A DNA stretch of 64,000 nucleotides, taken from Hyphomicrobiales bacterium. GTDB taxonomy: Bacteria; Pseudomonadota; Alphaproteobacteria; Rhizobiales; Xanthobacteraceae. The stretch is taken from positions 62,001 through 126,000 of the forward strand of contig JAFKKH010000025.1 of assembly GCA_017305665.1 (NCBI GenBank), in the 5' to 3' direction. The translations under genes and the position numbers were made by a program. The notes beneath the pieces were generated by a model. It made no database searches. It saw only the letters and a list, made by a program, of their open reading frames with translations, and was not told where the DNA came from. Below, piece after piece: positions 40,144-41,310 of this stretch (position 1 is the stretch's first letter; each line of letters begins with the position of its first letter).

Positions 40144-41310
40144 ATGGCGATCAAATTCGGGCGTCCCATCGAAATGCGGGATGGACCCCGCCGCGAGCCC
40201 GCCGTCTCCGCCCCTCCCCTCGACCTGGTGACCCGGCCACGCCGCAACCGAAAGGCGGAATGGGCCCGCCGGCTGGTGCGCGAAAACGTGCTGACCACCA
40301 ACGACCTGATCTGGCCGCTGTTCGTGGTGGAAGGCCGCAACAAACGTACCCCCGTGACATCGATGCCCGGCGTCGATCGCCTCACGGTCGACCAATGCGT
40401 GCGCGACGCCGAGCGTGCGATGAAGCTCGACATTCCCTGCATCGCCCTGTTCCCCTACACCGACCCGTCCCTGCGCGACGAGATCGGTAGCGAGGCGCTG
40501 AATGCGGACAATCTCGTGTGCCAGGCCGTGCGTGCTATCAAGAAGGAGTTTCCAGATCTCGGCGTGCTCTGCGACGTTGCGCTCGACCCCTTTACCAGCC
40601 ACGGCCACGACGGGCTGATCGAGGACGGCAAGATCCTTAACGATGAAACCGTCGGCGTGCTGGTCCGGCAGGCGCTGGTGCAGGCCGAGGCCGGATGCGA
40701 CATCATCGCGCCGTCCGACATGATGGACGGCCGCGTCGGCGCCATCCGGGAAGCGCTGGACGATGCCGGCTTCCTTGATGTGCAGATCATGGCCTATGCG
40801 GCGAAATACGCCTCCGCATTCTATGGCCCGTTCCGCGACGCCATTGGCTCAGCCAAGACCCTGACCGGCGACAAGCGCACCTATCAGATGGACAGTGCCA
40901 ACTCCGACGAAGCGCTGCGCGAAGTCGAACTCGACATCGCCGAAGGCGCTGACATGGTGATGGTGAAGCCGGGCATGCCCTATCTCGACGTGGTGCGCCG
41001 GGTGAAGGACAGTTTTGGGATGCCGACCTTCGCCTATCAGGTGTCTGGCGAATACGCGATGATCGCCGGCGCCGCGGGCAACGGCTGGATCGACGGCGAA
41101 CGGCGTGCTGACTTATTTCGCGGCAACGGCGGCAGAAAAGCTCAAGCGGCAAGCCTGAAACTCCGCTGGGAGCTTACGCGCTTTCATTGCCGTTCCGTAA
41201 CGGAATGCGGGACTTGCAACCCCGGCATCACGTCGCCATGTCGATGGTGGCGCGCCCATGCGCCATGGAGGAACGGCTATGACCGACAGCGGTTCAGGCA
41301 AGATGCATGA
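40144..41310 (+). CDS. hemB: Porphobilinogen synthase, C-terminus frameshifted by an apparent deletion
   Basis: Delta-aminolevulinic acid dehydratase, which joins two ALA molecules to porphobilinogen in haem synthesis. From the ATG at 40144 ([16 protein letters not shown]) 319 residues follow the family closely, including [15 protein letters not shown], the active-site lysines in [18 protein letters not shown] and [12 protein letters not shown], and [20 protein letters not shown]. After DGE at 41100 the frame is lost: 69 unrelated residues follow to the stop at 41310, overlapping the next gene. The correct end is in another frame (41102-41158). A missing stretch of about 47 bases explains the break and would restore the usual 353 aa. 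Confidence 0.88.
41102..41158 (+). pseudogene. hemB: Displaced true 3' end of hemB
   Basis: Read in the frame starting at 41102 this gives [18 protein letters not shown] and a TGA stop at 41156-41158, exactly the expected HemB C-terminus including the active-site tyrosine in LTYF. It is out of frame with the upstream hemB sequence; the helix that should connect them (normally like RAMMESLLAFKRAGAD) is absent. Confidence 0.88.

Follow-up and report, generated by a model that had tools for sequence, protein, structure and literature searches.

The porphobilinogen synthase gene hemB stands in this assembly with its 3′ end out of frame, which raises the question of whether a respiring alphaproteobacterium has lost a step of haem synthesis, or whether the break exists only in the assembled sequence. 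The window, the whole 64,000-nucleotide stretch analysed here, covers positions 62001-126000 of contig C15 (211,323 bases) in a draft genome (G000) of 5,025,433 bases in 47 contigs, with an estimated completeness of 99.99%. The locus contains the following features, in window coordinates:

39488..39970, minus strand: DUF6163 protein, the upstream neighbour (PF19660, 62.8 bits)
40144..41100, plus strand: hemB codons 1-319 in the normal frame, porphobilinogen synthase (5-aminolaevulinate dehydratase; NF006762; PF00490; PDB 1b4k)
41099..41104, plus strand: junction at which 47 nt are missing, with placement ambiguous by ≤4 nt (ACGG, 41100-41103), from alignment and spacing
41101..41310, plus strand: out-of-frame run of 69 foreign codons and a stop, into the start of the RDD gene
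41102..41158, plus strand: orphaned hemB 3′ end plus TGA in another frame, read from the sequence and fitting the tails of 107 relatives
41258..41821, plus strand: RDD-family protein, downstream (PF06271, 71 bits; a later ATG is possible as start)
41903..42679, plus strand: arginyltransferase, a conserved neighbour (NF002343, 423 bits)

A 47-nucleotide gap in hemB

The gene begins with the ATG at 40144 and its codon 319 (GAA) ends at 41100, while the frame as written continues to 388 codons with a stop at 41308-41310. The initial annotation had called hemB broken by a small deletion near its 3′ end, and as a description of the sequence this holds: the 319 normal residues, the break at 41100/41101 and the displaced ending at 41102-41158 are correct to the base, and the ORF reading bears out a 69-residue run of the current frame into the RDD gene. 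Residues 28-320 matched the porphobilinogen synthase equivalog model NF006762 well over its cut-off (475.4 bits against 297), and the product scored 428.5 bits with PF00490 (cut-off 24.6). Its best PDB sequence match was 1b4k from P. aeruginosa, and the best named relatives were Bradyrhizobium and kin. RDD and arginyltransferase genes lie downstream in the window and likewise in the same-genus genome G003. What sets the assembled gene apart from a typical HemB is its C-terminus, where a helix-strand-helix end is missing or out of frame; with 47 nt gone, the C-terminus is incomplete and the invariant tyrosine is out of frame.

We sized the gap against relatives. Of 109 loci fetched (29 + 80), 107 were readable by motif and two (L086 and L089) were left out for a motif mismatch. 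From the first base of SGEY to the tyrosine codon of TYF the window has 70 nt, in comparison to 117 nt in 107/107 relatives. A DNA alignment of the window with 25 of those relatives showed one block absent from the window, consistent with a 47-nt gap, and the two DNA match blocks that flank the gap in same-genus G002 were offset by 47. The initial estimate that 47 bases need restoring therefore agrees exactly with the relatives. None of the 107 shares the gap, including the seven that had a match out of eight same-genus genomes, so that a naturally shifted C-terminus in relatives, which would have refuted the initial annotation, was not seen.

Assuming that the lost segment resembled that of the relatives, the junction can be placed at ≤5 positions, i.e. 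≤4 nt (ACGG) are shared. A 7-nt repeat, GACGGCG, flanks the segment in several relatives; simple collapse of this repeat would take out 54 nt and does not account for the junction. We also considered a hairpin, using the predicted folding of the lost stretch in four relatives. Since folding was extreme in just two of the four (L034, rank 1/101; L038, 4/100; compared with 19/100 in L032 and 23/100 in L063), a hairpin was not used as a cause.

Contig C15 is otherwise clean. It has no N in 211,323 bases, and when 84 non-overlapping ORFs of a stretch of G003 were placed on it in a screen of 3′ ends only, seven were flagged for an altered end. Besides hemB, these were one ORF truncated at the edge of the contig and five that we discounted because they were short, of low identity or antisense. 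We judged hemB to be the only conserved gene that loses its end inside C15 among the 84 ORFs compared; other frame breaks nearby, looked for as a sign of an assembly artefact, were not found among these 3′ ends. So clean a contig is not what an assembly of poor overall quality would give, and it is the chief argument against an artefact, although a single local misjoin is possible. Separately, window positions 12230-36860 appeared to lack G003 counterparts, which may merely reflect the end of the G003 stretch compared; by eye, the genes in this interval appear unremarkable, and it has no tRNA and a GC content of 0.58-0.66.

Effect on the enzyme and state of the remaining codons

Columns that are lost or displaced by the gap include E, R, A, G and Y, each identical in 107/107 relatives. 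The loss had initially been described as that of a conserved active-site tyrosine, and conservation bears out the first half of this description (107/107 identical); the active-site half is general background. We take the tyrosine of the hemB tail (LTYF/TYF) to be an active-site residue that binds substrate. No statement of such a role was found in the literature searched, including the portion of PMC535902 consulted.

In a structural model of an intact relative (L063; mean pLDDT 78.4) the C-terminal end consists of a helix (318-332), a strand (336-338) and a helix (342-352). For the broken frame, AlphaFold gave a model (mean pLDDT 64.5) with pLDDT <50 at residues 319-388 and without the last strand and helix. 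A PDB structure search returned porphobilinogen synthase first for both models, the best hit reaching a TM-score of 0.77 with the intact model and 0.58 with the broken one; scores are normalised by query length, and the broken query is the longer. The product of the gene as it stands would in all likelihood have no activity.

The codons that remain look intact. Across codons 28-317 the window hemB keeps 76/76 columns that are invariant in relatives, and it has no residue unusual for its column, like 73 of 108 alignment rows. Its dN/dS against 11 relatives was 0.07-0.15, and computed intact pairs gave 0.02-0.20. As these codons are undecayed, the gap is therefore either not real or very young.

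Haem synthesis and uptake in the window genome and in relative G030

A profile search of the 5.03-Mb assembly gave one ALAD match. The suggestion that a second hemB compensates for the lesion thus found no support in the copy search, the match being single at 99.99% estimated completeness. Contig C21 carries a 54-nt DNA match that resembled a hemB fragment, but it was rejected because its frame is unlike HemB beyond three residues (EYA). The other pathway genes tested are in place: hemA (693 bits), hemC (354) and hemH (291) were each single, over cut-off and stop-free, and the ORF after hemC is hemD (PF02602, 120 bits). The order in the window genome is gpsA (assigned by its match to gpsA of relative G030), tsaD, hemC, hemD, an ORF without Pfam family and hemY (L272). 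Two of three CtaD/CoxA matches and one of eight NarG matches were over cut-off. Such respiration demands haem, and a true hemB null should be unable to grow unless haem is provided.

We then looked at uptake as the other proposed compensation, and it gained no support either: HemS had no match in the assembly, and none of 12 TonB-hemin matches was over cut-off. These 12 correspond to ten receptor places, of which eight were examined, leaving C4:42528 and C11:54063-56054. Three of the eight (L144, L146 and L148) were over a siderophore-receptor cut-off. Three others had best models below cut-off, namely a B12 receptor (L143), Fiu (L150) and PqqU (L147). For L145 and L149, TonB-hemin was the best-scoring model, far below cut-off. 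The six ORFs scanned beside these two were an NMT1-type ABC substrate-binding protein, an ABC ATPase of unknown substrate, SoxYZ, DUF4159, a phosphoesterase and one family-less ORF, with none of a family named for haem transport. Haem uptake is thereby unproven rather than excluded, and unrecognised receptors or import of porphobilinogen are possible. At 7017-13753 of locus L143 (G000:C10:9001-26000) lie this receptor, a protein with a weak BtuF match and ORFs that look cobalamin-like by eye; the locus probably serves B12 uptake or salvage.

To see what an established loss looks like, we turned to the relatives. No hemB match was found in 4 of 60, and none of the four had an ALAD match; three are incomplete (74-89%), and the fourth, G030, has a completeness rating of 100% and consists of two contigs (1,974,662 and 1,233,258 bases). 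The corresponding locus of G030 (L219; G030:C2:160001-180000) contains, in locus coordinates:

2453-2824: DUF6163-like, a weak match (30% identity)
5092-5193: decayed hemB 3′ remnant, reading RPAMESLLSFKRADAILTYFASRVAEKILSGTC and then a stop
14365-14844: RDD
14959-15705: arginyltransferase
18344-19681: mntH

All seven relative HemB queries matched one spot ending at 5175-5184 (E 1.2e-4 to 9.5e-8), between the DUF6163-like match and RDD, and nothing of the remaining hemB was found elsewhere in L219. The remnant adjoins a low-GC stretch (0.49-0.52) that carries a reverse transcriptase ORF (PF00078; 5482-6243). At a second locus (L271; C1:1720001-1740000, 9016-13836) G030 has kept gpsA, tsaD, a mitofilin-like ORF and hemY, but tsaD directly adjoins the mitofilin-like ORF, leaving no room for hemC or hemD. 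Consistent with this, hemC had no match in the compared stretches of G030 at E 0.01, and hemD none at E 1e-6; hemA (weak 28-39% match only) and hemH were not found in 2.16 of its 3.21 Mb. A COX1 gene is retained (L240). G030 is probably unable to make haem yet dependent on it. It has the appearance of a natural haem auxotroph in which respiration is retained, and its loss of hemB looks old and real. The window genome shows none of these signs of loss.

Natural haem auxotrophs have reportedly been the subject of a study by Kim et al. in 2021. Auxotrophs without haem-pathway genes are described in the part of PMC11139205 available to us, and against that description G030 is alike in its missing pathway genes, whereas the window genome, which keeps hemA, hemC, hemD and hemH, does not fit. 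The latter also had no uptake family over cut-off, and on the pathway genes searched (hemA, hemC, hemD and hemH, but not hemE, hemF/N or hemJ) it does not look like a natural auxotroph of that kind. Searches of the open PMC literature for Nitrobacter with porphobilinogen synthase, and for heme auxotroph with Xanthobacteraceae, found nothing.

Origin of the gap

The initial annotation had left open an assembly error or a real lesion, an alternative that the present evidence supports, and this evidence leans to the former. We consider it likely that the 47-nt gap is a local assembly error and not part of the organism's biology. This reading is favoured because the assembly has a sole ALAD match, intact pathway genes among those tested, haem-demanding respiration and no uptake family over cut-off, and because the codons are undecayed, the gap occurs in none of 107 relatives, and the old loss in G030 looks quite different. 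We infer that the gap arose during assembly; two contig ends could, for example, have been joined via a chance overlap of ≤4 bases. Spurious pseudogenes arising from assembly are documented in public genomes, as far as the consulted text of Cooley and Wright (2024; PMC11017572) goes, and the window resembles them in a one-gene frame break without decay. Yet it differs in that the gap is 47 nt rather than a single-base error, with its cause here putative, and so exact a gap is unlike the usual single-base error. Further points against an artefact are that microhomology of ≤4 nt, together with a Ku gene found in the genome, also fits a real end-joining deletion, that simple collapse of the GACGGCG repeat does not give the junction, and that TonB-hemin is the top-scoring model for two TonB receptors, albeit with scores far short of its cut-off. 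Absence of decay and of matching pathway loss, found here as expected for an artefact, is equally predicted by a very recent real lesion.

Such a lesion, with the 47 nt deleted very recently from the sequenced strain or population and the enzyme dead, is a less probable explanation, to which we give about one chance in four. It would have taken away the greater part of the helix preceding the final barrel strand and shifted the frame of both this strand and the closing helix, and cells would live on haem or a precursor from the medium or neighbours, or the deletion would be a minority allele in a mixed sample. The clean contig around the gap, the junction microhomology of ≤4 nt with the Ku gene, the broken-frame model without the final strand and helix of the intact relative, and the existence of an old hemB loss in the family (G030) all agree with it, but intact hemA, hemC, hemD and hemH, the lack of a haem-uptake family over cut-off and the undecayed hemB codons do not. 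Precedent comes from E. coli, which is able to ferment, and this weakens it as a parallel. In the portion of PMC5371073 consulted, spontaneous hemB mutants (small colony variants) of E. coli K-12 carried a transposon insertion; single-event loss of hemB function is the shared feature, whereas the window has a 47-nt gap in a respiring alphaproteobacterium. Readings in which the organism copes with the gap fare worse still. A tolerated shifted C-terminus, or ribosomal frameshifting that yields a working enzyme, might be argued from the 319 of about 353 residues present and from family models well over cut-off, and is nevertheless highly improbable, as no frameshift can supply 47 bases that are absent, columns identical in 107/107 relatives (E, R, A, G, Y) are among those lost or displaced, and the foreign tail is modelled at pLDDT <50. 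We give least credence to a lesion compensated by a second porphobilinogen synthase gene or dedicated haem uptake: twelve weak TonB-hemin matches, this model being the top one, below cut-off, for two receptors, and a draft in 47 contigs, where a gene could lie inside a gap, are outweighed by one ALAD match at 99.99% estimated completeness, a C21 match that is not HemB beyond three residues, the absence of HemS and the lack of a named haem-transport family beside L145/L149.

With assembly error as the preferred reading, hemB is most likely single-copy, ordinary and whole in the living organism. Left uncorrected, the sequence would lead to a pseudogene annotation for hemB, and the species could be labelled a haem auxotroph, at odds with the rest of its genome. 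A real deletion would mean that loss of the haem pathway had been caught at its start. It is quite unlikely, though slightly less so than a tolerated tail, that such a lesion is the first step on the road taken by G030, with hemB going first, haem or porphobilinogen being scavenged and the remaining pathway following later; if true, G000 and G030 would represent an early and a late stage of the loss of haem synthesis within one respiring alphaproteobacterial family.
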